A DNA stretch of 64,000 nt from an uncultured Verrucomicrobiota bacterium. GTDB lineage: Bacteria; Verrucomicrobiota; Verrucomicrobiia; Opitutales; Opitutaceae. The position numbers were made by a program, and so were the translations under genes. Within the stretch, counting starts at the first letter, position 1, and every line of letters starts with the position of its first letter. Location of the stretch: contig CAIUGM010000002.1 of the NCBI GenBank assembly GCA_903898675.1, positions 1-64,000 of the forward strand, read 5' to 3'. Shown here piece by piece: positions 1 to 14,376 of the stretch. The notes beneath the pieces are model-generated. The model had not been told where the DNA came from. It worked only from the letters and a program-made list of their open reading frames with translations, and did not search any database.

Positions 1-1
1 C

Positions 2-59
2 TCCATCCCTGGCTCCGGTCAGGCCCGCCAAGCCGGGCCTTCCCTACGCCAGGGATGGA
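2..59. repeat. Long imperfect hairpin (intergenic palindrome)
   Basis: Outer arms of 11 bases (positions 2-12 and 49-59, TCCATCCCTGG and its complement) enclose an inner AGGCCCG/CGGGCCT stem. No T-run follows on the plus strand. It could be a REP-like intergenic repeat or a terminator for a gene left of the window. Confidence 0.5.
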
Positions 60-304
60 CAACCAGCGTCAGTCATAGCAACATCAACCAACCATCCAGA
101 CCGACTCTAAGGGTGGCTCGAAAAGACGGAGCCGATCAGTGCTAAGAGGACTGGAATCGATCTGGAGGAGTGTAGGCATGGGAGGATTGGATAGACGACT
201 TGTGATGCGTAACCGACAAGTGTCGTTTATTAGATAAACGTCAAGTGTTGTTTTTGTAGGCGTTTTTCTTTGCCTCTCATTAATAAACGGTTACCGGTCA
301 AATT
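60..304. other. Non-coding leader upstream of the TetR gene
   Basis: No convincing coding frame is visible. The right half (about 180-300) is AT-richer and holds the operator-like palindrome described separately, so it is the probable promoter region of the TetR gene. Nothing else is recognised. Confidence 0.4.
214..250. promoter_or_regulatory. Candidate operator of the TetR-family gene
   Basis: A perfect palindrome CGTTTAT-TAG-ATAAACG lies at 224-240. It is flanked by direct copies of CAAGTGT at 217-223 and 243-249. It sits about 65 bases before the ATG at 305, the place where an autoregulating TetR repressor usually binds. A related half-site (ATAAACGG) recurs at about 283-290. Binding is inferred only. 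Confidence 0.45.
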
Positions 305-931
305 ATGCCTGTTTCAGACTGTGAAGTGAAAGATCCGCGGATTCGGAGGACCCGGCAATTGCTGCAGGGAGCCTTGCGGACGCTCATGCAGGCGAAGAGT
401 TTTGATGAGATTTCGGTTCAGGATATCGCCGATGCGGCCACGGTAAACCGCGCCACTTTCTACGATCACTACACCGACAAATTCGCCCTGCTTGATGCGT
501 TGGTCGCGGGTGGATTTCACCAGATACTGCACGAACGGAGTGTGAGCTACGATGGCAGCTGTCCGTCGGCGGCGCGGCCGGTCATCCTGGCCGCCTGCGA
601 TTACCTGGCGCTGCATCAGGGCGGTTGCACGGAGGTGGCGCACAAGAGTGCGTTCGAGCCGCTGATCGAGGCGGCCATCACCAACGCGATCCGGCGCGTC
701 CTGCTCCCGGGTCTGTCGCCGGCTGCCGTCACTGCCGGGCCGTCCGCCGAGATGGTCGCGACGACCGCCAGCTGGGCGATCTACGGCGCGGTCAAGGAGT
801 GGTTGAAAACCCCGCAGCGCCCGCCCGCGGAGGAAATCGTTTCGGTCATTCTGCCGCTGATCGTCCCAATCCTGCAGGCGGTGCCGCTGGCGAAATGCCC
901 CGAGGCCGGAGTCGTGCCGGGTGTCGTTTGA
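305..931 (+). CDS. TetR/AcrR-family transcriptional regulator
   Basis: The 208-residue product has an N-terminal TetR DNA-binding domain at about residues 12-60. This includes the helix-turn-helix stretch ISVQDIADAATVNRATFYDH and the usual following YTDK. The C-terminal ligand-binding/dimerisation half (residues 70-200) is not diagnostic. Proteins of this family normally repress their own gene or a neighbour and respond to a small molecule. A palindrome upstream (224-240) is a plausible operator. The next gene downstream (DUF3237 protein) is 395 bases away, so no partner is certain. Length is normal for the family. Confidence 0.85.
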   Translation: MPVSDCEVKDPRIRRTRQLLQGALRTLMQAKSFDEISVQDIADAATVNRATFYDHYTDKFALLDALVAGGFHQILHERSVSYDGSCPSAARPVILAACDYLALHQGGCTEVAHKSAFEPLIEAAITNAIRRVLLPGLSPAAVTAGPSAEMVATTASWAIYGAVKEWLKTPQRPPAEEIVSVILPLIVPILQAVPLAKCPEAGVVPGVV

Positions 932-1326
932 TCGGGCTGCACTCCCCCGGGTGGCGTGGCTCCAGTCCAGGTGGGGCTCGCGAAGGATATAAAGGAACCG
1001 ACTGGCACCTGCACGCGCCTGCCTTTGCTCCCTTCGTAACCGTCGCGAGAAAATGCCGCTGAGTTAACCGCCAGTCTGCACTGATGGACGTTAATGGCTG
1101 GTTTAGAAAATGGATTTGAGGTCTGATTTATTAGCGAATTCGCGGGCTCAAATGATGGGCAGATCGCGGTGGTGCAGGGAAGCACAACAACAGGGCGACA
1201 CGAACCGGCGCGGAGGGTTAGGACATGGCCGGGAGGTGCGGGCGCCGGACACGCGTTCGTTAATCAGCCGCACTTCGGGCGACGGGTTTATTCCTTTCTG
1301 GCAAATCTATTCCCTCCGCAATACCC
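932..1326. other. Intergenic stretch, no gene recognised
   Basis: The 395 bases between the TetR gene and the DUF3237 gene hold only short frames without family resemblance. No tRNA-like fold or strong terminator was seen. Confidence 0.4.
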
Positions 1327-1929
1327 ATGATCCAATCTGCTGGCGGTCGGCCGGACTCGCCGGTCGCCGCGCCTCGCGACCCGGCAATCATTAAAATTTC
1401 ACTTCGCACCGGATGGATCGTTTTGACCACACTCGGTTTGAGCCTATCCGGGTCGGGCACTGAAGCGCCCGCCCAGACATCCACTGCGACTGAAAAGCAA
1501 TCCGCGGTGAGTGTGCCGCCATTGCTGACGGAGTTTGTCTACGAAGCGGTGGTTGCCATCGACGCGCCGATCGACGTGGGCGCGACCCCGCTGGGCCGGC
1601 GCCGATATATTCCAATCACCGGCGGAACCCTTCAAGGGCCCCGGCTGCGCGGCGTCGTCCTGCCCGGCGGGGCCGACTGGCAGACCGACCGTTCCGACGG
1701 CGTGACGGAGGCGGACGCGCTTTACTCGATCCGCACGGACGATGGAACGGTGATCATTGTACGGAATCAGGGGGTCATCGCCGCGGGCGGGGCCTACATG
1801 CGCACTGCGTTGCGTTTCACGGCGCCGAACGGGCCGCACGAGTGGCTGAACCAGTCCCAGTTTGTCAGTTCCATCGCCGGGGGCCCGCGCCCCGGCACGG
1901 TCATTATCCGCGTCTTCCGGGTTTTGTGA
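1327..1929 (+). CDS. DUF3237 domain protein, probably exported
   Basis: The 200-residue product has a hydrophobic stretch at about residues 27-48 (GWIVLTTLGLSLSGSG) followed by APAQ, which resembles a signal peptide read from a somewhat long N-terminus. The true start may therefore be later. Residues 64-199 fit the DUF3237 pattern: LLTEFVYEAVVAI near the start, GRRRYIPITGGTLQGP, GVVLPGGADWQ, a DALYSIRTDDG segment and IRVFRVL at the end. The family folds as a beta barrel and its biochemical role is unknown. It stands alone between the TetR gene and the polysaccharide cluster. Confidence 0.7.
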   Translation: MIQSAGGRPDSPVAAPRDPAIIKISLRTGWIVLTTLGLSLSGSGTEAPAQTSTATEKQSAVSVPPLLTEFVYEAVVAIDAPIDVGATPLGRRRYIPITGGTLQGPRLRGVVLPGGADWQTDRSDGVTEADALYSIRTDDGTVIIVRNQGVIAAGGAYMRTALRFTAPNGPHEWLNQSQFVSSIAGGPRPGTVIIRVFRVL

Positions 1930-2256
1930 TGTTGATCGCAGGTTGCCGCGCCTGGGGCGCGCGCCCGGGAAAAGTGCTCAAACTGCCCCTCGTTGTGACG
2001 GCAGAGGGTCGCCATTGCGGGTCTACTTTACCGTTAGGGAGAAAACTACTCCCAACTCCCCGCCGGGTGTGTTTGAGTAGACCTCTCCCCATCCTGTCTG
2101 GGTCGACTTTGGTCGGCCATGTTCCCTGGCCGTGACCCGAGCCGTTCGATCTACCCCTCTACGATTCCCTTCCAGCGCATTCCTTCACACACATTGTGGT
2201 CGGCGTGATCTGGTAGGACCGCATTTAGGTCCGTTCTTCCATCCCCTCATTCAACG
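1930..2256. other. Intergenic leader of the polysaccharide-degradation cluster
   Basis: These 327 bases contain a small hairpin at about 2036-2053 (GGGAG...CTCCC), some 200 bases before the GH51 start. No coding frame or recognised riboswitch was seen. The promoter of the GH51-esterase cluster should lie here. Confidence 0.4.
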
Positions 2257-4776
2257 ATGAAAATCTTTCACCCCAAAGCGGCGCTTTGCGCCATCACCTG
2301 GACCGGCCTTGCCGTCCTCGCCGGCTGGGCCGCGCCGGCCAAGCTCGAGATCGACCTCAGCCATCCCGGTCCTGCGATTCCCGCCAGTTTTTACGGCCTG
2401 ATGACCGAGGAGATAAACTACAGCTACGATGGCGGCCTGTTCGCCGAACTGATTCGGAACCGCACATTCCAGGATCCGCCTGCCGGCCAGACCGGCCGGT
2501 CCGCGAAGCCGCCGATCGGAGTGGTCCCGCCGCATTGGTCGGTGGTCGGCGCCGCCAGCGCCGCGACGAATCAGTTCGATCCCGTGAATGCCGCGCTGCC
2601 GGTGAATCTCCGGCTCACGCTCTCCGGCGGCACGGGCGGCATCGCCAACAACGGCTACTGGGGCATCCCGGTTAAGCCGGACACCCGGTATACCGCCTCG
2701 TTTTACGCGCGGGGTATCGCCGGCTTCGCCGGGCCGGTCACCGCGGCGCTTGTCACGGCCGACGGCGAGCGCACGGTCGTCAAGGCCGCGACTGCCGCGC
2801 TCACCGGCGCGTGGAAAAAATACACACTCACCTTCACCACGCCCGCTGACGCGCCGGCGACCGCCGCCGCCCGTCTCGTGCTTTCGGCGACCGGCCTGGG
2901 CAGCATCGACTTCAGCTTCGTGTCACTCTTCCCGCCGACCTACCGTGACGTGCCCAACGGCCTGCGGCCCGACATCATGAAGCTGCTGGCGGACATGCAT
3001 CCGGCCTTCATCCGCCTCCCCGGCGGCAATTATGTCGAGGGCAGCCGCTTTGCCGATCGTTTTGCGTGGAAGAAAATGATCGGGCCGGCCGACGAGCGGC
3101 CCGGCCACATGGGCTGCTGGAGTTACCGGAGTAGCGACGGCTTCGGCCTGCCGGAGTATCTGCTCTGGTGCAAGCAGCTCGGTGCCGAGCCGGTGCTCGC
3201 GCTCTTTGCCGGCTACACCCTGAATGGAGACTACGCCGCAGCGGGCAGCGCGGAGCTCGATCTGTACACGAAGGAGGCGCTCGAGGAGATCGAGTATGTC
3301 ATGGGCCCGGCTGACAGCGAGTGGGGCAAGCGCCGCGCGACCGACGGTTTCCCCGAACCGTTCCAGCTGAAGTATGTGGAAATCGGCAACGAGGACTTCT
3401 TCGACCACTCGGGCAGCTACGAAGGCCGTTTTGCCCAGATGGCTAAGGCGATCCGGGAGAAATATCCGCAGCTCAAGATCATCGCCACGACGCCAGTCAC
3501 AGGGACAAAAACCGACCTCGTCGACGACCACATCTATGCCACCGCGGGCACGATGATTCGTGAGGGGACCCGCTACGACCCGGGCTCGGGTCATCCGGAG
3601 GGCCGCAAGGCCGACGGTATCAAGGTGTTCATGGGTGAATGGGCCACGCAGGGTGGCTCACCTACGCCCAACCTGATGTCGGCCCTCGGTGATGCCGTTT
3701 TCGTCATGGGCCTCGAGCGCAATGCCGACGACGTCGTGATGCAATGTTACGCCCCGCTCTTCGCGAATGTGAATGTTGAGGATCAGGCGAAGGGGCACCC
3801 ACGCGGCTGGCAGTGGAACACGAACCTGATCGGGTACGACGCCCTCCACGCCTTCGGTTCTCCGAGTTACCACGTCCTAGCCGTCTTCGGGCAGAACAAG
3901 GGCGACGTCGTTGTACCGGTCAGTCTCGATGTGCCCCAGGTCGCCGTGATCGAGGATCCACATCCGCGCGGCCGGGTGGGCGTGGGTTCGTATGGGACGC
4001 GGGTTGAATATTCCGACTTCGTCGTCACCAGTCCCGATGGCCGCACGCTCTCTTCCGACAACCTGACCAAGGATGCCGGCCAATGGCAGTTCACCCAGGG
4101 GCGCTGGTCTCTCGACGGCGGCGTCCTGCGTCCGCAAGGCAACGGTCCCCAGTCCTGGGCCCTCGCGGGCGATCCGGGCTGGACCAATTACACGGTCACA
4201 CTGCGCGCGCGGAAGCTTGCCGGTGACGAAGGCTTCATCCTCCTCTGGCATGCGGCCGACGGGGACAACTACCGCTGGTGGAATCTCGGCGGTTGGGGCA
4301 ACACGGTTTCCCGTTGTGAGGTGGCCGAAAATGGCGGCCGCGAGCCCTACGGGACGGGCGTACCCTTCTCGGTTGAAACCGGCCGGTGGTACGTGCTGAA
4401 ACTTGAAGTGAACGGCCATTCCGCCCGCGGTTACGTTGACGGCAAACTGGTCATGGCGGAGAACGACGAGCCGCCCCGCCCAGCGGCGACCGCGTTTGCC
4501 TCCGCGTCCTACGTCAACGCCAGCGGCGAATTGATCGTAAAGGTCGTCAACACGGCGGCGGCCCCGCTGGCGGCCGAAATTCATCTCAAGGCTGCGCGCG
4601 AGGTCGGCGCCGGCAAGGCGATCGTCATCGCGGGCGATCCCGCGGCGACCAATTCAGTCGCGCAGCCGGCTAACGTCGCGCCCAGGGAAGAGCCGCTTAC
4701 AAATGCCGCGGCGGTGTTCAGCCGCACCTTTGCGCCTTACTCGGTCACCCTGCTGCGGTTTCCCGCCAAAAAATAA
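2257..4776 (+). CDS. Alpha-L-arabinofuranosidase, GH51-type, secreted
   Basis: The 839-residue product begins with a signal peptide (residues 1-28) and enters the GH51 scaffold at FYGLMTEEINYSYDGG. Residues 100-230 look like an inserted CBM4/9-type jelly roll. The catalytic barrel follows, with IRLPGGNYVEG, an acid/base Glu379 in EIGNEDF and a probable nucleophile Glu461 in MGEWATQG. Residues about 585-735 form a laminin-G/DUF1080-like module (YRWWNLGGWGN) placed within the C-terminal part. The enzyme should release arabinose side chains from arabinan or arabinoxylan outside the cytoplasm. Three esterase genes follow on the same strand, which fits removal of acyl decorations from the same substrate. 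Confidence 0.88.
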   Translation: MKIFHPKAALCAITWTGLAVLAGWAAPAKLEIDLSHPGPAIPASFYGLMTEEINYSYDGGLFAELIRNRTFQDPPAGQTGRSAKPPIGVVPPHWSVVGAASAATNQFDPVNAALPVNLRLTLSGGTGGIANNGYWGIPVKPDTRYTASFYARGIAGFAGPVTAALVTADGERTVVKAATAALTGAWKKYTLTFTTPADAPATAAARLVLSATGLGSIDFSFVSLFPPTYRDVPNGLRPDIMKLLADMHPAFIRLPGGNYVEGSRFADRFAWKKMIGPADERPGHMGCWSYRSSDGFGLPEYLLWCKQLGAEPVLALFAGYTLNGDYAAAGSAELDLYTKEALEEIEYVMGPADSEWGKRRATDGFPEPFQLKYVEIGNEDFFDHSGSYEGRFAQMAKAIREKYPQLKIIATTPVTGTKTDLVDDHIYATAGTMIREGTRYDPGSGHPEGRKADGIKVFMGEWATQGGSPTPNLMSALGDAVFVMGLERNADDVVMQCYAPLFANVNVEDQAKGHPRGWQWNTNLIGYDALHAFGSPSYHVLAVFGQNKGDVVVPVSLDVPQVAVIEDPHPRGRVGVGSYGTRVEYSDFVVTSPDGRTLSSDNLTKDAGQWQFTQGRWSLDGGVLRPQGNGPQSWALAGDPGWTNYTVTLRARKLAGDEGFILLWHAADGDNYRWWNLGGWGNTVSRCEVAENGGREPYGTGVPFSVETGRWYVLKLEVNGHSARGYVDGKLVMAENDEPPRPAATAFASASYVNASGELIVKVVNTAAAPLAAEIHLKAAREVGAGKAIVIAGDPAATNSVAQPANVAPREEPLTNAAAVFSRTFAPYSVTLLRFPAKK

Positions 4777-4803
4777 CCCGCCAACCCCCCTCGCTCCCCC
4801 TCC

Positions 4804-5655
4804 ATGATCACGTCCGCCCGAATGTTTGCTTTGGCCGCCGTGCTGCTGGCGGTTCGCGCCGAAGCCCAGGACAGGAATTTTTATATTTTCCTGTGCCTGG
4901 GGCAGTCGAACATGGAGGGCTTTCCCGGAATTCCGGCCGAGGAAAAAACCTGGGCCGACCCGCGTTTCAAGGTGCTGGCGGCGGTGGATTTCCCCGCGCT
5001 GAATCGAACCCGGGGCAATTGGTACACCGCCGTCCCGCCGCTGTGCCGGCCCGATTCCGGGCTCAGTCCGTCCGACTATTTCGGACGCACGCTGGTCGCA
5101 AAACTCCCGGCGGCAATTTCGATCGGGGTCGTCAACGTCGCGGTCGCCGGCGCCAGGATCGAGGTGTTCAACCCGGCCACGCTCGAATCCTACGCGGCCA
5201 CGGCCCCGTCCTGGATGAAGGGGATCATCGCCGCGTACGGCGGCAGTCCTTACCAGCGTCTGGTCGACCTCGGCCGGCAGGCCAAGCAAGCCGGCGTCAT
5301 CCATGGGATTCTCCTGAATCAGGGCGAATCCAACACCAACGACCCGGAGTGGCCGGCCAAGGTCAAGGCCCTCTATGAAAACCTGCTCAGGGATCTCGAC
5401 CTCAAGGCCGGTGATGTGCCGCTCCTCGTCGGCGAGGTCGTGGCCGCCGACCAGAAGGGCGCCTGTGCGAGCATGAACGACATCATCGCCACGCTGCCGA
5501 AAACCATTCCCAGCGCCCATGTCGTCTCCTCGGCCGGCTGCGCCTGCCGGCCCGACCACCTGCACTTCACGGCGGAAGGCTACCGCGAACTTGGCAAACG
5601 GTACGCCGAGGTGATGCTGCCGTTGCTCGGTCGCGGGCCTTCCGTCGCAAAGTGA
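4804..5655 (+). CDS. SGNH-type (sialate O-acetylesterase-like, CE6-type) carbohydrate esterase
   Basis: The 283-residue product has a short signal peptide (residues 1-20, ending in AEAQ). The SGNH block I follows as LGQSNMEGFPGI, with the Ser nucleophile at about residue 35. Gly and Asn blocks are suggested by NVAVAGARIEVF and LLNQGESNTND, and the block V Asp/His by RPDHLHFTAEGY near residue 260. Families with this layout remove acetyl groups from sialic acid or xylan. The context (GH51 upstream, esterases downstream) favours a plant-polysaccharide role. It starts 27 bases after the GH51 stop, so co-transcription is likely. Confidence 0.82.
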   Translation: MITSARMFALAAVLLAVRAEAQDRNFYIFLCLGQSNMEGFPGIPAEEKTWADPRFKVLAAVDFPALNRTRGNWYTAVPPLCRPDSGLSPSDYFGRTLVAKLPAAISIGVVNVAVAGARIEVFNPATLESYAATAPSWMKGIIAAYGGSPYQRLVDLGRQAKQAGVIHGILLNQGESNTNDPEWPAKVKALYENLLRDLDLKAGDVPLLVGEVVAADQKGACASMNDIIATLPKTIPSAHVVSSAGCACRPDHLHFTAEGYRELGKRYAEVMLPLLGRGPSVAK

Positions 5656-5693
5656 TTTCTCCCCATCGCCAGTTCCTTTCACCCCATATCCCC

Positions 5694-6650
5694 ATGACCC
5701 TACCTGAAAAGTTGATGAACCTGACCAAGACGGCCGCCCTGGCCTCGCTGCTTGCCTGCGCCACGTCCGCCCTCGCGCAAGACGGCACGATCTATCCACT
5801 CGACGCCCCCGCCGAGCCCAACGCCATCGCGCTCGGCACCGGTGGCGTCGCGAACCAGCCCGCGAAGGAGAGCTGGTTCCGCCAGTGGGGCGAGCCCATG
5901 GTACGCAACGTCACTACCGCCACGCTGACGCCGTTCCTGCCCGACCCGGCCAAGGCCAACGGCACTGCGGTCATCGTGGCGCCCGGCGGTGGCTTTCGCT
6001 GGCTCTCGATCAACAACGAGGGCTGGAAAATCGCGAAGGCCCTCAACGATCGCGGCATTGCCGCCTTCGTGCTCAAGTACCGGCTGCAACCGACGCCCGA
6101 TACGCTCGAGGGCCTGAAGCAGTCGATGAACCAGATGTTCGCGCCCCCGGCACCCGCACCCGCGGGTGCCCCGGCGGTCGAAGCCCCGCGTCCGCCGTCA
6201 CCGGACCTGTCCAACCAGCTGCAGGACGCCGAGGCCGCCTACGCCATGATCGTCAGCCGGGCCAGGGAGTGGAACGTCGATCCAAAACGGATCGGCATGG
6301 TCGGCTTCTCGGCCGGCGCCGGCCTGACCATGCATTGCACGCTCCACTCCAAGACCATGAAGTTCGCCTTCATCGCCCCGATCTACGGTGGCATGGGACG
6401 GGTCGACGTGCCGAAGGATGCGCCGCCGCTCTTCGTGGCCATCGCCGCGAATGACTTCCTCTTCCGCGGCGAGTTCGGGTTGATCAGGTCGTGGTTCTTA
6501 GCCGGTCGGCCGGTCGAGTTTCACCTCTACCAGGACGGCGGCCACGGCTTTGGCATGGGCTACCCGGGCCACCCCACGTACTGGTGGTTCGAGCCCTTCA
6601 CCCACTGGCTCGACGTGAACGGTTTTCTCAAGGCCAGGGCAGGGGAGTGA
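5694..6650 (+). CDS. Alpha/beta-hydrolase esterase (acetylxylan/feruloyl esterase-like)
   Basis: A GTG at 5652 overlaps the previous stop, but the ATG at 5694 gives the better start and leads into a signal peptide (MNLTKTAALASLLACATSALA). The fold shows VIVAPGGGF (oxyanion-hole region), the nucleophile elbow GFSAGAG and a C-terminal GGHGFGMG holding the likely catalytic His. A Pro/Ala-rich loop lies mid-protein at about residues 148-168. Homologues of this type deacylate xylan or act as broad esterases, often beside glycoside hydrolases. It is the third gene of the same-strand cluster. Confidence 0.8.
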   Translation: MTLPEKLMNLTKTAALASLLACATSALAQDGTIYPLDAPAEPNAIALGTGGVANQPAKESWFRQWGEPMVRNVTTATLTPFLPDPAKANGTAVIVAPGGGFRWLSINNEGWKIAKALNDRGIAAFVLKYRLQPTPDTLEGLKQSMNQMFAPPAPAPAGAPAVEAPRPPSPDLSNQLQDAEAAYAMIVSRAREWNVDPKRIGMVGFSAGAGLTMHCTLHSKTMKFAFIAPIYGGMGRVDVPKDAPPLFVAIAANDFLFRGEFGLIRSWFLAGRPVEFHLYQDGGHGFGMGYPGHPTYWWFEPFTHWLDVNGFLKARAGE

Positions 6651-6726
6651 AATCCCTGCGGTTCTGGTTTCATTCCATCCCTGCGCCAGCCTGATTTGCT
6701 TTCGCTCCCTTGCTTCTGCCCCGCTT

Positions 6727-8280
6727 ATGAAAACCAAACTGACCGTCTTTCTCGCCCTATTCGCCGTCGGGTTGGGCTATGCGCAATCGCCGGCCCCCGT
6801 CATGACCGAATACGGTCTCGTGCAGGGGGTCGCCGCGCCCGGCCTGAGTGTCTATAAAGGCATCCCGTTCGCCGCGCCGCCGGTCGGCGATCTCCGCTGG
6901 CGTCCGCCGCTGCCCGTCGCAAAATGGACCGGCGTGCGTGCGGCCACGGACTTCGCGCCCGATCCCTTTCAGGGTGACGGCAAGGGGAACGTGAGCGAGG
7001 ACTGCCTTTACCTGAACATCTGGACGCCCGCGAAGTCCGCGGCCGAGAAGGTGCCGGTGCTCGTCTGGATCTACGGCGGCGGGTTCTCGTTTGGCTCCAC
7101 GTCGACGCCGGTCCACAACGGCGAGCACCTGGCGCGGAAGGGTGTCGTGCTCGTCAGCATCAATTACCGCGTCGGCCCGCTGGGCTTTCTCGCGCATCCG
7201 GAATTGAGCGCCGAATCGCCGCACCATGTTTCCGGCAACTACGGCCTCCTGGACCAGATCGCGGGCCTGCGCTGGGTGAAGCGGAACATCGCGGCCTTCG
7301 GCGGCGACCCGGACAAGGTCACGATCTTTGGCGAGTCCGCGGGCGGCATCGCGGTCAGCATGCTGTGCGCCTCGCCCGAGGCCAAGGGACTCTTCCGTGG
7401 CGCCATCTCGCAAAGCGGTGGATCATTCGGCCCGACGCGTCCGACAACCTATCCCGGTGAGAACATGAAGCCGCTCGCCGAAGCCGAGCAGGCCGGCGTG
7501 GCCTTCGCCGCGAAAGCCGGCGCCGCGTCGGTCGCGGACCTCCGCAAGCTCGCCCCGGAAAAGCTCCCGCCGGGCTGGGGCAGCGGCGCGGCGTGGCCGA
7601 TCGTCGATGGCTGGGTGGTTCCCGGCGACCAGCACGAGCTCTACGAAGCGGGAAATTACAACGATGTCGCGGTCCTGATCGGCTACAATTCCGACGAGGG
7701 CCTGAGTTTCCCTTCGGGCAAGACCCCGGCGGAATACGCCGCGAATACGCAGAAGCGCTACGGTCCGTTCGCGGACAAACTCCTGCAGGCCTATCCCGCC
7801 GGGACCGACTCTGTGCCCAGAACCGCGCGCGATCTCTCCCGCGACGCGGCCTTTGGCTGGCAGACGTGGAGTTGGGCCAACCTGCAGGTGCTCACCGGAA
7901 AATCCAAAGTCTTCTATTACCATTTCGACCAGCACCCGCCGCATCCGGCCGGCTCACCCGAGGCCGACCACGGCATGGCGCACGGCATGGACGTGCCCTA
8001 TGTTTTCCAAACCCTCGACCCCAATGATACGAAGCTGACGCCGGGCGATCACGCGATCTCGGACACCGTGTCAACTTACTGGACGAACTTCGCCAAGCGG
8101 GGCGATCCCAACGGGCCGGGGGTCCCGGCGTGGCCGCAGTACACCGGCAAAAACAGCGGCGTGATGTATTTTCATGACGAGGCAACCCCCGGTCCGGTGC
8201 CTGGCGCCGCGGCGCTGGAGGTGCTCGATGCCTATTTTACCTGGCGCCGCACGCCAGAAGGCAAGGCTTGGGCCAAGTGA
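6727..8280 (+). CDS. Type B carboxylesterase, secreted
   Basis: The 517-residue product has a signal peptide (residues 1-19) and the complete type B carboxylesterase signature. This comprises GIPFAAPPVGDLRWRPP near the N-terminus, EDCLYLNIWTP, VWIYGGGFSFGS (oxyanion loop), the nucleophile Ser204 in FGESAGG, an acid in GYNSDEGLSF and the His in AHGMDVPYVF. Length is normal. It ends the hemicellulose cluster, 76 bases after the previous gene. Substrate is not predictable; feruloyl or other aromatic esters are plausible from context. Confidence 0.87.
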   Translation: MKTKLTVFLALFAVGLGYAQSPAPVMTEYGLVQGVAAPGLSVYKGIPFAAPPVGDLRWRPPLPVAKWTGVRAATDFAPDPFQGDGKGNVSEDCLYLNIWTPAKSAAEKVPVLVWIYGGGFSFGSTSTPVHNGEHLARKGVVLVSINYRVGPLGFLAHPELSAESPHHVSGNYGLLDQIAGLRWVKRNIAAFGGDPDKVTIFGESAGGIAVSMLCASPEAKGLFRGAISQSGGSFGPTRPTTYPGENMKPLAEAEQAGVAFAAKAGAASVADLRKLAPEKLPPGWGSGAAWPIVDGWVVPGDQHELYEAGNYNDVAVLIGYNSDEGLSFPSGKTPAEYAANTQKRYGPFADKLLQAYPAGTDSVPRTARDLSRDAAFGWQTWSWANLQVLTGKSKVFYYHFDQHPPHPAGSPEADHGMAHGMDVPYVFQTLDPNDTKLTPGDHAISDTVSTYWTNFAKRGDPNGPGVPAWPQYTGKNSGVMYFHDEATPGPVPGAAALEVLDAYFTWRRTPEGKAWAK

Positions 8281-8450
8281 CCGGATGGCTTTGCCGAAGC
8301 CTCAAGGATACGGCAGCTACCCCGGTGCTCATCCTTCGGCGCAGGAATCTACGGGATCGCGGTGACGAATGCCCTCCTGGATAGCCGTGCCCACCAAGGC
8401 GTAGTTGGCCGCGCGCGAGGCCTTGTCTCCGGATGCTATCGCTCAGGAAG

Positions 8451-8482
8451 CAAAAGACCCGGCCTTTTTGGACCGGGTCTCG
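8451..8482 (-). terminator. Intrinsic terminator, probably the original one of rng
   Basis: Arms AGACCCGG and CCGGGTCT (8455-8480) form a strong stem. On the minus strand it is followed by TTTT, as in a Rho-independent terminator. If the transposon is removed, the rng stop codon lies about 25 bases upstream of this stem on the minus strand, so this was probably the rng terminator. Confidence 0.6.
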
Positions 8483-8505
8483 AAAACAGAATTAACCTCT
8501 CGGAC

Positions 8506-8510
8506 TAAAC
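8506..8510. repeat. Left target-site duplication (TAAAC)
   Basis: TAAAC directly precedes the left terminal inverted repeat and is repeated at 12624-12628 directly after the right one. This is the signature of a transposition event with a 5-base staggered cut. Confidence 0.8.
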
Positions 8511-8536
8511 TGTGAGCGGGTAGAAATCATGAGGAG
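8511..8536 (+). repeat. Left terminal inverted repeat
   Basis: Starts TGTGAGCGGG and ends TCATGAGGAG; identical over 26 bases to the reverse complement of 12598-12623. A degenerate second copy may lie at about 8605-8627 (GCGGGTAGATG). Confidence 0.85.
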
Positions 8537-8682
8537 CGTAAAAAGGACTTTTCAGACGGGAGAGTTTCCGCTGATGCCCGGACGAGGCAGGAGAGTTCAG
8601 GAGTTGCGGGTAGATGACTACAGGACTGACTAAAGGAGAAAAGGGCATCTGGCAGAGCTGGCGTCAACGGGGATCACAGCGG

Positions 8683-9015
8683 TCACGGTTGTCGGTCTCG
8701 TTCGTTCAGGAATCGCTCCACTTCCTTGCGTGTGTATATCTTCGTCCGGAGATATCGCAGAGACTTAAGTAGGCCGCGAGCTTCAAGCCGATATATGCTC
8801 ACCTTAGAAATCCCCAAGGCCATGCTCAGTTCCTTCAGGCTGTAGCTGAGTTTTTCTGGAATCTCTACCGGCACTGGCAGATGGGCGGGCGGCGGCGCTG
8901 GCTCAGCGAGGGGGGGCGGCGTTCGGAGCACGGCGCGGCTTAGCCGTTCTCCGATCATTTCGACTATCCGGCCAGCCAGGATCTCGATGTCGTCGTCGGT
9001 TAGTGTGCGGTTCAT
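8683..9015 (-). CDS. Small helix-turn-helix (excisionase/MerR-like) DNA-binding protein
   Basis: The longer frame starts at 9087, but the ATG at 9015 (MNRTLTDDD) gives a natural start and a 110-residue product. The C-terminal half has the excisionase-type winged HTH: YSLKELSMALGISKVSIYRL then RTKIYTRKEVERFLNE. The N-terminal 40 residues are a predicted helix followed by a Pro-rich linker (PPPLAEPAPPPAH). Proteins like this act as DNA-binding adaptors or directionality factors of mobile elements. It is the gene nearest the left end of the transposon and reads towards that end. It could regulate the element or its transposition. Confidence 0.6.
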   Translation of the reverse strand: MNRTLTDDDIEILAGRIVEMIGERLSRAVLRTPPPLAEPAPPPAHLPVPVEIPEKLSYSLKELSMALGISKVSIYRLEARGLLKSLRYLRTKIYTRKEVERFLNERDRQP

Positions 9016-9337
9016 GGTAAGCAGGCGTGTCGAAGCCGACGGAGTCTTGCAGGACCAATTTTCCGAATCGCTCTTCAAAAGTTCCAACCCGACCGAGGGA
9101 GAATGGCCTACCTGCCGTTGCCGACTGATTGAAGCTAACGCACAAGAAATGGGCTCGCTCGATGAACTGCAGGGCGGTGAGCTGACGCTCTGGGCCGAAG
9201 AAAATGTCGAGCACCTGATTGATCTGCTGGACCATCATCTCCTTCAAGGCCACGAGCGTGGAGGCATCCTGGCTTTCTAGGACACGCCAATCGGCAAGAT
9301 CGGCTTCGATCGCCTTACCGGCCATCGCCCGCGCCAC
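9016..9337 (-). pseudogene. Unassigned open frame, possible gene remnant
   Basis: A minus-strand frame from a GTG at 9337 has a protein-like stretch (LADWRVLESQDASTLVALKE and the following about 50 residues, amphipathic and helix-like). It then runs into the HTH gene in another frame, and its last 40 residues are Arg/Pro-rich shadow sequence. It begins exactly where the DUF2130 remnant goes out of frame, so it may be the other side of a deletion or rearrangement junction. No family is recognised; it may not be expressed. Confidence 0.3.
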
Positions 9338-9606
9338 TGCTGGCGGGCGCGAGCCTCCACCTCTTTCAGGCGGATATTGAGCTTTTTCGTGACCTCGACT
9401 TCGAGGTCCAAAGCCTGCTTGCGGATCAGCTCTTCCTTCGTGCGAAGCTCCTGGAGCTTCGATTCCAGCGACTGCTCGCGTTTGAGCACTTCGGCGGAAA
9501 GTTCCTTGCGGACCCCTTCCCGGACTGAACCGAGAACGGCTCCGCTGAGAGGAAACTCATGCGAGCAGCTCGGACAGGTGACGGTGATGATGTTGTGTGT
9601 GTTCAT
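9277..9606 (-). pseudogene. 5' fragment of a DUF2130-family gene
   Basis: From the ATG at 9606 the frame reads a DUF2130-type N-terminus: a CPSCSHEF zinc-knuckle-like start followed by a charged coiled coil (REQSLESKLQELRTKEELIR and on to about residue 88). The frame then turns into Arg/Pro/Trp-rich sequence (QQWRGRWPVRRSK) and stops after 109 residues. Intact DUF2130 proteins are several hundred residues long, so this is a truncated gene. The break point is near 9340. It shares an AT-rich upstream region (about 9607-9650) that could still carry its promoter. Confidence 0.6.
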
Positions 9607-9850
9607 AAAGTTGCTCTTGGATAATAATTTAAAAGACCTCTTAGTTGCGCCCATACAAGCGGACGCCATGGCGAAGCCGGCTGGCGTCTGCCGGCGGGGC
9701 TTCTCCGCCGGCGCAAACGCCAACTGCCGCGAGTAAATCGAGGCGCTCATTGAGCTCCTGCCTCGTCATCTCTTCACTGACATACCGGCCGAGCATCGGC
9801 CCGATACTGCTCTTGGCACGCGCTTTTCCTCTGCAGATTTAGTTTCCAGA

Positions 9851-11290
9851 ATGTTGACGCTGTGCAATTTTTATCCGGGTCTTGTGCAACAATTCTGTAG
9901 CCGCATGTGGCGGCGAATGATCGAACATCGCGTGGAAGGACCTCCTTTCCAGATAACCGAAGCGGAGTTGGATGAGGTCTATCAGGACCCGGCGTTTCGC
10001 GAAGACATTGTCGGCCGGTTTAAACTTACCCTACAACTCGATCCTCGTTATTGGTTGCTCGCATATATTGTGGCGCATCAGTTCTTGGAGGCGCCTGATG
10101 AGGCGGAGCAGGGGTACACCTCAACCGACCTGAGAAAAATGGCTCAGGACTGGTGGATGGACGGATTCGCACAGGGTTCCTCAGATGAATTCCGCTCGCT
10201 CTTGGATGAGATGTGTCAACTCGGAGTTTTCAGGAGGTCACAGGACCGCTATAGTTTCCGAAACGCAAACTTACTCTTGTTATTAGGTACTCGTGAAGAG
10301 ATAGCGTCGCACTTGGTAGAAGGACCGCGCAAGATTGTTGACTATACGCCTCGGAGTTTCAGGGCCAGGAGGAAGACAGGCAAAGAATCGTCCCTCCGCC
10401 GTACAATGACATTAAGTGATGAATCGAAACTTTGTGCAAAAACAAACGGAGTTACGTTCGTCCTTGGCTCAAGAGCACTCGGCCTCGATTTGGCGGGAGC
10501 GTCTATGGCTGAAGTCGTACCTGTAGGACGGCAACATATCATTCGTTCAACTTCAATTACATCAGAACAATTCGAATTAGAGTTAGCAAAGATCGCTTCA
10601 TCGACACTAGATGGCGAGGACGGATTGCATTTGGTGTGGGTGCCTGCGCAGGTGAAGTGGACTGAAGAGTGGGCATCCAGCGCTCGTAGTTTCTGTCAAA
10701 AACTTCGTTCCCCGATTCGCTATATTCGCGTTGTCTTCGAGGTCTCTCCTGAAGCTCTTTGGGACAAAAACGCTACTTGGATTCGAAAGATAACGACAGA
10801 TGGAAGCGACCTTATCGTGCTAAAGAAATGGTCTGAAGACTTCTTGTTGCCCTTACTGAGTGAGATTGGGATTCCAATGAACGAAGGGGAGGTTGCAAAG
10901 CTTGTCGATGCAACCGGCGGTTGGCCGGAGTTTGTGCAAGAGTTTGCGCGGCAACAAAGCCACGCAGCAAACAAGGACATTGCCTATGCATCTCTACGAG
11001 AACACCCGCCCTTCGAAGGCGACGAAGCGCTGGTTCGCTTTACGGGAAACAGTGAAGCTGCGCGAACTGTCGCTAGCATCATGAAGAAGATGCGCGCGCA
11101 GCAAACCAAGGCCGATGAAGTGTTAGTAGACGGTGATCTACCAGCCTATGCCGAGATCTTGAACATCCCTGATGAAACCATCCGAGATATTTTGGTGGTG
11201 GCTGAGTTGCTTGGGCTAGTCGACATTGTCCAGCCCGGTTCAAGAAAGTGGGACCCCGTCTTCGAACGGCTCGTTCTGCGTGAATCCTGA
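9851..11290 (+). pseudogene. STAND/AAA-type ATPase C-terminal part, 5'-truncated (P-loop missing)
   Basis: The first ATG gives 479 residues, but sensible sequence continues upstream in frame without a start (TALGTRFSSADLVSRMLTL, about 9800-9856; frame open to 9737). Residues 1-30 (LCNFYPGLVQQFC) match the end of a STAND-type NTPase domain. A winged helix follows at about residues 115-160 (LLDEMCQLGVFRRSQDRYSF, then RNANLLLLLG). Residues 185-370 look like a second, P-loop-less ATPase module ending in TGGWPEFVQEFA, and a wHTH-like tail closes the protein. No Walker A or B motif is present. The next gene overlaps its end. Composition is less GC-rich than the neighbourhood. It may be expressed as a shortened protein or be dead. 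Confidence 0.55.
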
Positions 11291-12371
11291 AGAATTCTGG
11301 TCGTTGCCCGGCCCTCGACGGTTTGTTGCCGCCGCGGTTTCGGACGTTCTCGACGGGAAATGTGTCGTCGCGCGAGCCCCTCTCATTTTGCTCGATGATT
11401 TGGCATCCGAAATCAGGAGACATCTTCGCGAACGAGAATACTGGTTTGATACACTCACGCCCTCAACTGAACCACTCCAGGCGTTATCGTTAGCCTTACC
11501 CAAACAAGACGGCCCGCCCGTATTGCGGACAATTATAGACGCTTGCGGACCGACAAGGCGTATCATGCTTGTGACTGTGACCGATGCGAAGATTTGGCCC
11601 GAGTGGGCGTCGCTTTTGCTTAAATTTCACCAACAAATTGTTCGGCTAGATGAGCACACCCGGCCTATATTAGTCATTACCACCAGTTGTTCGGTTCGCA
11701 GCCTATGCGATGAGGTTGCATTGCGTATCCGAGCATGGGATGGCGCTTGGACCGAAACAGATTCTATTGCATTGGCACAGTCGTTCTCTCACGGGCTTTG
11801 GTCAGACTCGTTCGTCGAAAAGGTGGCGGTCCACACCGTCGCGTCACTGGCAATTTGGGATACGCAACTTTGCGCGCGTCTGACGGCCTCAACAAAAGAA
11901 ATGTTTAGTGATCCTCTGAATTTACTTAAGGAAGTAGCGTCTTCGCGCGGTTGGACGGCAAGATCGCAAGAAGATGAGGATATGGGCACTGCGGGATATC
12001 TTGATGGAAGGCGCGTTATGCATTCAGCCCTTCTGGCGGTCCGAGCGGATGATTCGCCACAGGGAAGGCATGCAAGGGCAGAACTCGATCGGCGAACTTG
12101 GAAAGCGCAGGCGGCTGTACTATTGCCTTGGATTGAGGAGCAAAGACTGCGTTTGGTGCGTGATATTGCTCGGTTCCTTCCGATTCGAGACGAGGATCCG
12201 CCTGAGATCAGGGAAATTGGTTCAATTTGGTTTGAGTTACGGCGCACAAATGCACCTGCAAACCAAAAATGGAAAGTGAGCCTGCTGCGGGACGCCCGCA
12301 ATACGCTCGCTCACCGGGACATACTGTCTGAAGCGCAACTGAAGATGCTGGAAACAACCTTCAAGTATTGA
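11280..12371 (+). CDS. Uncharacterised protein with C-terminal HEPN-like motif; partner of the ATPase
   Basis: The longest frame starts at a TTG (11226), but GTG at 11280 (VNPEEFWSLPGP) overlaps the ATPase stop by only 11 bases and is preferred (363 residues). The N-terminal half resembles a NTPase fold that has lost its P-loop (GPRRFVAAAVSDVLDGKCVV, then RIMLVTVTDAK and PILVITTS as core strands). The C-terminal about 110 residues are helical and end with LRDARNTLAH (Arg340...His345), the R-x4-H motif of HEPN ribonucleases. Known HEPN toxins often pair with STAND or nucleotidyltransferase partners in phage defence or abortive infection. Function here is inferred; no exact family is recognised. 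Confidence 0.5.
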   Translation: MNPEEFWSLPGPRRFVAAAVSDVLDGKCVVARAPLILLDDLASEIRRHLREREYWFDTLTPSTEPLQALSLALPKQDGPPVLRTIIDACGPTRRIMLVTVTDAKIWPEWASLLLKFHQQIVRLDEHTRPILVITTSCSVRSLCDEVALRIRAWDGAWTETDSIALAQSFSHGLWSDSFVEKVAVHTVASLAIWDTQLCARLTASTKEMFSDPLNLLKEVASSRGWTARSQEDEDMGTAGYLDGRRVMHSALLAVRADDSPQGRHARAELDRRTWKAQAAVLLPWIEEQRLRLVRDIARFLPIRDEDPPEIREIGSIWFELRRTNAPANQKWKVSLLRDARNTLAHRDILSEAQLKMLETTFKY

Positions 12372-12476
12372 GTCACTCGACCCATTTTGGGTCGAGTATG
12401 CGGAGAGGACATTCTAGCTAGCCGAACTGTTGAACGATAACCGTGTGGTTCGCCACCATCCAAGGGGTGGGGAAAC

Positions 12477-12506
12477 AAAAAGCCGCAGGCGAACCTGCGG
12501 CTTTGA
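12477..12506. terminator. Bidirectional intrinsic terminator hairpin
   Basis: AAAGCCGCAGG (12479-12489), loop CGAA, CCTGCGGCTTT (12494-12504). A-tract and T-tract flank the stem, so it could stop transcription from the HEPN-like gene and readthrough from the other side. It lies inside the transposon, 108 bases after the last cargo gene. Confidence 0.65.
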
Positions 12507-12524
12507 ATTGGGCGATGTATTTAA

Positions 12525-12613
12525 CCTGCGACTCCTCGTGATTTCTACCTGCGACTCCTCGTGATTTCTACCCGAGAGTCCTCGTGATATCTACCCACTC
12601 CTCATGATTTCTA
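12525..12613 (-). repeat. Tandem 20-23-bp repeats at the right transposon end
   Basis: Four head-to-tail units at 12525-12547, 12548-12570, 12571-12593 and 12594-12613 share the core CTCCTCGTGATTTCTA (one with ATAT, the last with CTCATG). Read on the minus strand the core is the inner part of the terminal repeat. They are probably multiple transposase-binding sites. Confidence 0.8.
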
Positions 12614-12623
12614 CCCGCTCACA
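12598..12623 (-). repeat. Right terminal inverted repeat
   Basis: Reverse complement of the left TIR over all 26 bases. It is followed immediately by TAAAC (12624-12628). Confidence 0.85.
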
Positions 12624-12628
12624 TAAAC
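12624..12628. repeat. Right target-site duplication (TAAAC), overlapping the rng stop codon
   Basis: Second copy of the target duplication. Its last base is the final base of the rng TAG stop codon (minus strand, 12628-12630), so the insertion left the coding frame of rng intact. Confidence 0.8.
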
Positions 12629-14376
12629 TAACGATACTCCTCATTCGTCATCGCGTTGATGATTTTGAAGTTTTCGACGTGGTAATTCGGGTCGGCGCGG
12701 AAGGCCAGTTTCACGCCGTAGGTTTTCTCCACGCGGACAAGGAGCTCCGAATCCTCGGAGCGCAGGCGGTCGAGGATCGACGGGTGGACGTGGATGCGGA
12801 GGGCGTATTCCTTGCCGTCCTTGCGGGTCTGCAGGCGGCGGGCGACGGAGGACAGCTTGCGCTGCAGCTCCACCGACATCGTCGTCGCGGACTTCACGAT
12901 GCCGCGGCCGCGGCAGTACGGGCAGGCCGTGTAGATGTTGGCCGAGAGCGACTCCTGCTGGCGCTGGCGGGTCATCTGCATGATGCCGAGCGTCGAGATG
13001 GGCAGGATGTGCGTCTTGGCCTTGTCCTCGGACATCAGCTCGACCATCTTGTCGTAAACCGAGTTGCGATGGCGGCGCTCCTTCATGTCGATGTAGTCCA
13101 TGATCACGAGGCCGCCGATGTTGCGGAGCCGGATCTGGCGCGAGATCTCCACCGCGGCCTCCATGTTCACCTGGAAGATGGTGTTCTTCTCGTCGCCGGA
13201 GCGGGACTTGTGGGAGCCGGTGTTGACGTCGATGGAGATGAGGGCCTCCGTCTCGTCGATCACGATCTCGCCGCCGGACGGCAGCGGGACGCGGCGCTGG
13301 AAGGTCTGCTCGATCTGGCGCTCGATGTTGTAGCGCTCGAAGACCGGGATGGCCTCCTTGTAGTACGCGATCTTGCCGCGGGAGCGGGAGGAAATCTGCG
13401 AGACGAGCTCCTGGGTGCGCTTGAAGTCGGACTCGTTGTCGATGAGCACGCGGTCGATGTCCTCGGTGAGGAAGTCGCGGACGGTGCGCTCGACGATGTC
13501 GGGCTCCTGGTAGAGGCAGGCGGGGGCGCGGTCGTTCTCCATCTTGTGGACGATCTCCTGCCACTTGGTGAGGAGCAGGTGGAGGTCGCGGACGAAGTAG
13601 CGGGGTTTCTTGCCCTCGCCGGCGGTGCGGACGATGATGCCCATGCCCTCGGGGATGGTCAGCTCGTTGATGAGCGTCTTGAGGCGCTTGCGCTCCTGCG
13701 GGTCCTCGATCTTGCGGGAGATGCCGCAGCCGTCGGAAAACGGCGTGAGGATGAGGTAGCGGCCGGGCAGCGAGAGGTTGGTCGTCGTGCGCGGGCCCTT
13801 GGTGCCGATCGGGCCCTTGGTGACCTGGATGACGATGTCGGTGCCGGGCGGGTAGAGGCTCGGGATGTCCTTGACCGTGGGCTGGGCGGGGCGCTGGCCG
13901 CCGGCGTCCTTCTTCTTGTTGACGCGCACGACCTCGACGGAGGAGTCGGTGGCGGCGGGCAAAATGTCCCAGTAGTGGAGGAAGGCGTTCTTGTTGTAGC
14001 CGATGTCGACGAACGCGGCCTTGAGGCCCGGGTCGAGGTTCTTGATGCGGCCCTTGTAGATGCCGCCAACCATGCGGCTGTCGGATTCCCGCTCGATCTC
14101 GAAGCGGTCGAGGGTGCCGTCGACGAGGAGCGCGACGCGCTTCTCGAGGGGCTCGGAGTTGATGACGAGTTCGCGGAAGGAGCCCTTCTCCTTGCGGAAG
14201 ACGCTCAGGATCTTCTGGAGGATGGGCCGGTTGGCGGCGCGTTCCTTGGATTCATTGCGGAGCTGTTCCGCGGTGAGAGGCTCGCTGTGCTTCTGCGGCG
14301 GGGGGTTGGCGAGTTCCTCTTCATAACGTGAGGCGGCGTCCGAGGGGACGCCGGAGTTTGTGGGTTGGTCGTTCAT
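12628..14376 (-). CDS. rng: Ribonuclease G/E
   Basis: The 582-residue product is an RNase E/G-type endoribonuclease for rRNA maturation and mRNA decay. After a charged 60-residue N-terminal extension it shows the S1 RNA-binding region ([31 protein letters not shown]) and [20 protein letters not shown]. The 5' sensor/DNase-like region has DGCGISRKI. Catalytic Asp residues lie in [10 protein letters not shown] and VIMDYIDM. The Zn-link motif is CPYCRGRG near residue 490. No long C-terminal scaffold is present, so it is closer to RNase G in layout. It lies 107 bases downstream of rodA on the same strand. A transposon abuts its stop codon and separates it from its likely terminator. Confidence 0.93.

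Follow-up and report, generated by a model that had tools for sequence, protein, structure and literature searches.

The window, by which we mean the whole 64,000-nucleotide stretch of DNA analysed, carries an element of 4,113 bp with cargo genes between two repeat-bearing ends, inserted beside the host RNase E/G gene (Table 1). An inverted-repeat search recovered two identical, perfect terminal inverted repeats (TIRs) of 26 bp, against a longest exact inverted repeat of 16 bp in 200 mononucleotide shuffles of the region, and the 5-bp sequence TAAAC (GTTTA on the opposite strand) is present on both sides of the element.

At the right end, TRF reported a 23-bp unit in 4.1 copies (12524-12615) and a repeat search found four copies (12533-12615) with spacings of 23, 23 and 20, each with the 17-bp core GGTAGAWATCAYGAGGA on the minus strand; the right TIR includes the outermost of the four, and the same core is found on the plus strand at the left end. 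This confirmed the four tandem core-bearing units that the initial annotation had placed at the right end, and the one clear and perhaps one degenerate copy it had described at the left end were recovered as an exact unit and a degenerate unit, CGGGTAGATGACTACAGGAC, whose score was equalled by 3 of 778 same-size control windows (64 kb, both strands). Taken by itself the degenerate unit is only suggestive, and it gains weight because the element of genome G595, which belongs to the same repeat class, has a similar site at a near-equal distance from its left end (degenerate pair GGGTAGATGACTACAGG in the window and GGGTAAGTGACTCCGGG in G595, at positions 98 and 90). Hairpin-like sequences such as the one just inside the window's array were also seen after the arrays of G017, G012 and G005, as judged by sequence alone and unfolded.

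Table 1. Positions of the element, its repeat units, its flanks and its cargo in the window
Feature	Positions	Strand	Basis
element, Tn7-type ends	8511..12623	.	perfect TIRs and 5-bp duplication
left TIR, same sequence as right	8511..8536	+	inverted-repeat search
right TIR, TGTGAGCGGGTAGAAATCATGAGGAG	12598..12623	-	inverted-repeat search; adjoins rne stop codon
left-end unit 1, +9 from end	8519..8535	+	core match
left-end unit 2, degenerate, about +97	8607..8626	+	control-window score; similar site in G595
right-end unit 1, +9 from end, predicted TnsB site	12599..12615	-	core match
right-end unit 2, +29	12579..12595	-	core match
right-end unit 3, +52	12556..12572	-	core match
right-end unit 4, +75	12533..12549	-	core match
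terminator-like hairpin, GCCGCAGG/CCTGCGGC then U-run, just inside array	12479..12504	-	-19.5 kcal/mol, z -5.58
target duplication TAAAC, left	8506..8510	.	sequence
target duplication TAAAC, right	12624..12628	.	sequence; shares last base of rne stop codon
host RNase E/G gene (rne/rng), 3' end = insertion site	12628..14376	-	RNase_E_G PF10150 1.2e-99; TIGR00757 4.1e-140
probable remnant of older array-ended element: one GTTAATTCTGTTT unit and hairpin	8454..8505	-	motif at 8484; hairpin -20 kcal/mol
134-aa helix-turn-helix protein, possibly regulator	8683..9087	-	HTH_17 6.5e-5, 23.5 bits (curated cut-off 27); PADLOC mad1 4.5e-7
two overlapping ORFs, probably gene fragments	8903..9750 (8903-9337, 9277-9750)	-	no Pfam match
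479 aa, similar to C-terminal part of ~1,900-2,300-aa ATP-binding proteins	9851..11290	+	tblastn to plasmids
381-aa partner	11226..12371	+	homologue after ATPase gene in Salinibacter and Thiodictyon plasmids

The cargo of the element is probably partly decayed. The two overlapping ORFs gave nothing above cut-off in NCBIfam, and the one at 9277-9750, perhaps a coiled coil, had weak PADLOC LmuB matches (best 3.3e-4). The ORF at 9851-11290 is probably 5'-truncated and corresponds to about the last quarter of a large AAA protein: its relatives are 2,289, 2,038 and 1,927 aa long, AAA_22 was found in both of the two scanned, and a search of 387 genomes of the phylum found this ATPase in the host only. 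Intact pairs of the ATPase and its partner are present on Salinibacter and Thiodictyon plasmids, and the pair recurs on several plasmids; the Salinibacter pair had no match in PADLOC. The pair, of which the window has a truncated relative (9851-12371), may be a defence system not yet described.

Neither the TIR, with up to 3 mismatches allowed, nor the exact core was found elsewhere in the host genome, and among 142 genomes (relatives and host) the exact core pattern occurred only in the host. The 20-base end pattern had no match in the wider genome contig collection, and blastn of plasmids and phages with the array returned none. Twelve stretches of viral contigs each held a single close match without an array, which we ascribe to chance. 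No protein of the element matched the Tn7-type and IS21 queries, so that no transposition genes were recognised in it.

Insertion at rne and recurrence in relatives

The array adjoins the rne/rng stop codon, and the right duplication overlaps the last base of that codon. In the left flank, the window has a GTTAATTCTGTTT unit with a hairpin, and a similar arrangement is seen beside rne in L029, L118 and L147; in L029 (genome G001), this unit and this type of hairpin stand close after rne with no element between, as in an empty site. In L121, L128, L143 and L147, moreover, GTTAATTCTGTTT forms an array behind rne, so that the left flank is probably what is left of an older element; a left end matching the remnant was not found in window positions 1-8480.

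Two sets of relatives were read for arrays after rne, a genus set of 16 usable loci plus the window (17 in all; L031 was left out, its contig ending too early) and a family set of 60 further loci, selected on rank and on the room left on the contig; 200 genomes had been searched for this set, of which 177 gave a match. Read by eye, arrays come directly after the rne stop codon in four of the 17 genus loci (the window, G005, G012 and G017) and in 14 of the 60 family loci (L119, L121, L122, L128, L136, L137, L141, L143, L144, L147, L148, L152, L156, L170), the other 46 having none. An automatic close-repeat test was positive in 23 of 78 rne flanks (window and G049 included, the latter chosen for its TnsD) compared with 27 of 952 control windows taken within those loci; six of these 23 positives are low-complexity by eye (L120, L131, L151, L165, L173, G014), and the real arrays of L136 and L144 fell under its threshold. 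In the 19 array-bearing loci, G049 included, a terminal TG was read 1-5 nt past the rne stop codon.

The arrays of the relatives mostly consist of other repeat sequences in a similar register. The repeat class of the window, GGTARAAATCAYGAGGA, has related arrays at rne in G085 and G595, and the other classes at this site are GTTAATTCTGTTT, TGACAYKAATTCCGTG, GACATTAATG..GTCG (G017 and G012, with the related GACATTAATSCTGTTG in G005) and GATAATAATGTCGTG (G049). Both ends were located in six elements of 2-7 kb, those of the window (4,113 bp), G595 (3,115 bp), G012 (6,692 bp), G556 (2,977 bp), G068 (4,212 bp) and G526 (2,066 bp). Their right-end units start at 9/29/52/75 in the window, 9/29/51 in G595, 9/29/51/73/95 in G012, 8/28/48/70 in G068, 8/28/70 in G556 (one between them unscored) and 12/31/52 in G526. 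The terminal left-end unit scored above threshold in five of the six, the exception being G595, and a second, weaker left-end unit did so in G556, G068 and G526 and was visible in G012. Exact 5-bp duplications flank three of the six (window, G012, G556) and a 6-bp one flanks G595, none being seen in G068 and G526. Between 15 and 24 of 24 bp are identical in the TIRs.

The cargo differs from element to element. The transposase-less 6.7-kb element of G012 (L083; duplication AGCGA) carries a Gabija-like pair homologous to GajA (3.1e-149) and GajB (5.7e-61), and the others carry a hybrid histidine kinase (G556), an Ig-like repeat protein (G595), a beta-propeller protein (G068) and a HAD hydrolase with a sugar transporter (G526). 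At L184 (G526), a second array of another repeat class begins about 8 nt beyond the first element's left end and is followed by a GH10 gene; judging from this locus, elements seem to line up one behind another next to rne.

Tn7-type genes at rne and the search for them in the host

Two of the relatives have Tn7-type transposition genes at rne. In G017, a Lacunisphaera sp. MAG of the same genus (JAQSDJ010000063.1), the rne-side array is followed by defence-like cargo (Eco57I-type methylase, PLD-helicase, LexA-like) and then by tnsA-tnsB-tnsC-tnsD and a second TnsD/TniQ gene. The supporting matches were PF08722 for tnsA (1.1e-4, under cut-off), the Tn7 TnsB of PDB 7pik for TnsB (L082:10-2283; 1e-29), TniB for tnsC (4.4e-12) and PF15978 for tnsD (7.8e-38), and the far end was not found as far as the contig end. 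Homologues of all five genes are present at rne in G049 (Opitutaceae bacterium VE3 MAG, JACSRI010000106.1), a genome found via its TnsD beside rne (D1 31% over 453 aa, D2 26% over 609 aa relative to G017). The tns genes of G049 read towards rne, opposite to those of G017. No far end was found for the G049 element, so that its array is called the right end by position only. Residues D340/D345, D427 and E461 are invariant in four aligned TnsBs and are a possible DDE triad.

The TnsB of G017 had no match in Pfam at E values up to 0.1, and a TnsB profile was therefore used in place of the rve and Mu-transpos_C models; surveys based on either model could miss such a TnsB, although it is a clear relative. 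The profile matched 9 of 189 genomes, the host, G012 and G005 not being among them; G059, which has an array at rne, is among the nine, with its TnsB on another contig. The TnsD model PF15978 matched 11 of 189 genomes, again without the host. In the host genome neither rve nor Mu-transpos_C gave a match, the latter matching no control genome and 9 of 142 relatives. Since tnsB and tnsD were not found in the host, as judged from a 40-contig assembly that is 99.95% complete, the window element is probably no longer mobile by itself there.

The other 17 of the 19 array-bearing rne loci had no match to the five Tns proteins within the stretch read, which was about 10-20 kb mostly and shorter for G005 and G045. 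No tns genes were present in the stretch read of the window-class relatives G085 and G595, and none were found with the window's own repeat class. A TnsC search of the wider genome contig collection returned only G017 and G049, and the Tns/Tni loci off rne (G003, G016, G043, G059, G084, G020 and others) contained no window-class motif within 2 mismatches. Another Tn7-type tnsABCD locus off rne is present in the same genus at L216 (G003) and L217 (G016); its ends and attachment site were not found.

Which transposase family moved the element

The initial annotation had taken the asymmetric multi-site ends to point to an IS21-type or a Tn7-type mobilising family. The layout of the array alone does not decide the family, because 5 of 30 IS21 loci of the phylum (L055, L056, L060, L064, L068) have similar tandem units, about 4-5 of 22-24 bp, near an istA match. 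Movement by an IS21-type IstAB, with the array as an IS21 multi-site end, could further draw on L072 (G022, a genome of the same family). The IS21 end at 1117-1180 of this locus starts TGTAAGCAGG, not unlike TGTGAGCGGG, and its second unit matches the 17-bp window core with 3 mismatches, by chance or perhaps through distant kinship of the sites. No other match at up to 3 mismatches was seen among the 30 IS21 loci, and none at up to 2. No IS21 gene was found in the element, and the istA transposase model had no match in the host genome. When the longest ORFs of eight IS21 loci (at most two each, not all of which need be istA/istB) were searched against the window and 31 loci of relatives, no match was found. 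In G022, further, rne is not followed by an array (L167), and IS21 leaves the recurrence after the rne stop codon unexplained. We therefore consider an IS21-type origin unlikely, and of the two families first proposed it is the Tn7-type that the insertion site upholds: relatives have arrays of comparable register at this site, and two of their genomes have tnsA-B-C-D-D there.

A transposase of the TniA class, Tn5053/Tn402- or Mu-like, is a very improbable mover of the element. Loci of this class are present in the family (G043, G020), and the ends of Tn5090/Tn5053 are repeat arrays according to PMC8649781. But the TniA, TniB and TniQ queries of G043 found nothing at rne sites (the only match of that search being G059 TnsC to G017 TnsC), its end sequences look different, and the machinery found at rne is tnsA-B-C-D-D. 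No tniA was found in the element, and in the host there was no match to rve, to Mu-transpos_C or to the TnsB profile, which also catches the TniA of G043 and G020. That the repeats belong to rne itself, as a 3' UTR of tandem repeats or part of a terminator, and are not transposon ends, is scarcely credible: the arrays do stand directly after the stop codon with hairpins next, but a perfect TIR lies 4 kb away, 5-bp duplications flank three elements whose cargo differs, and no array was read by eye at 46 of the 60 rne loci. For the window, the TIR and the duplication refute this reading.

The preferred, Tn7-type assignment can be compared with known systems. Like Tn7, whose attTn7 lies downstream of glmS, the window element has asymmetric multi-site ends, with four sites close together at the end towards the att gene and spaced sites opposite, a 5-bp duplication and an insertion beside a conserved gene (features of Tn7 as given in PMC11406308); unlike Tn7, it lies directly after the RNase E/G stop codon, has another repeat sequence and no recognised tns genes. 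The same paper lists glmS, tRNA, parE, guaC, yciA, ffs and rsmJ as att genes, comM is a further one in PMC10293859, whose main text has no occurrence of "ribonuclease" or "RNase", and PMC8649781 describes arrays as a unifying feature. No report of an rne attachment site for Tn7-like elements was found in the literature searched, which took in few subscription papers and no preprints.

Of the traits that define Tn7-like elements, the window element shows a 5-bp duplication, arrays of sites of about 20 bp at both ends (the second left site degenerate), close together at the att-facing end, and a fixed site beside a conserved gene, in common with two tns-bearing elements of other repeat classes. 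Because no tnsB match was found in the element or the host, we name these Tn7-type ends, and the window element is short of being a Tn7-like transposon. The rne-associated elements of G017 and G049 share its insertion site and array placement and differ in having tnsABC with two TnsD/TniQ and other repeat motifs, the tns orientation being reversed in G049. MITEs and other non-autonomous bacterial elements also lack a transposase and are presumably moved in trans. The rne elements differ from them in that they are 2-7 kb long, with complete cargo genes and multi-site ends, and recur at a single site of the chromosome.

Proposed mechanism and a possible docking site at rne

We consider it likely that the window holds a non-autonomous Tn7-type element with the array as its right end, one that would be served by TnsABC in trans and targeted by TnsD/TniQ to the 3' end of rne. 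The four close 20-23-bp right-end units and the one or two spaced left-end units would be binding sites of a TnsB-type transposase. A Tn7-type TnsABC supplied in trans would pair both ends, with TnsC as the link, and a TnsD/TniQ selector bound to the rne 3' end would steer the element to the position immediately past the stop codon, with the array end towards rne and a 5-bp duplication left behind. The hairpin just inside the array could end the rne transcript, which would restore termination after insertion.

More tentatively, the 3' end of rne in Opitutaceae may be a dedicated docking site for cassette-like, transposase-free Tn7-type elements. Such elements, with at least five repeat motifs in a similar register, would bring single genes or operons to one place on the chromosome, stack beside one another (as in G526, and in the window beside its remnant), bring their own terminator that spares rne, and depend on rare tns-bearing helpers. 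Among the array-bearing loci, 17 of 19 lack tns genes in the stretch read versus two that have them, one of these (G049) having been chosen for its TnsD, and the two-ended elements carry defence, signalling, transport and other genes. A large survey of Tn7-like elements, which included five Verrucomicrobia host species, was built on a tnsB-based pipeline (PMC8649781), and a search of that kind would miss members without a transposase. Arrays at the ends and a fixed site allow such elements to be detected without a transposase gene. A new att gene read by paired TnsD/TniQ, if confirmed, would be useful for site-specific insertion, and, if the docking-site reading is true, these elements would be a Tn7-based counterpart of integron cassettes.
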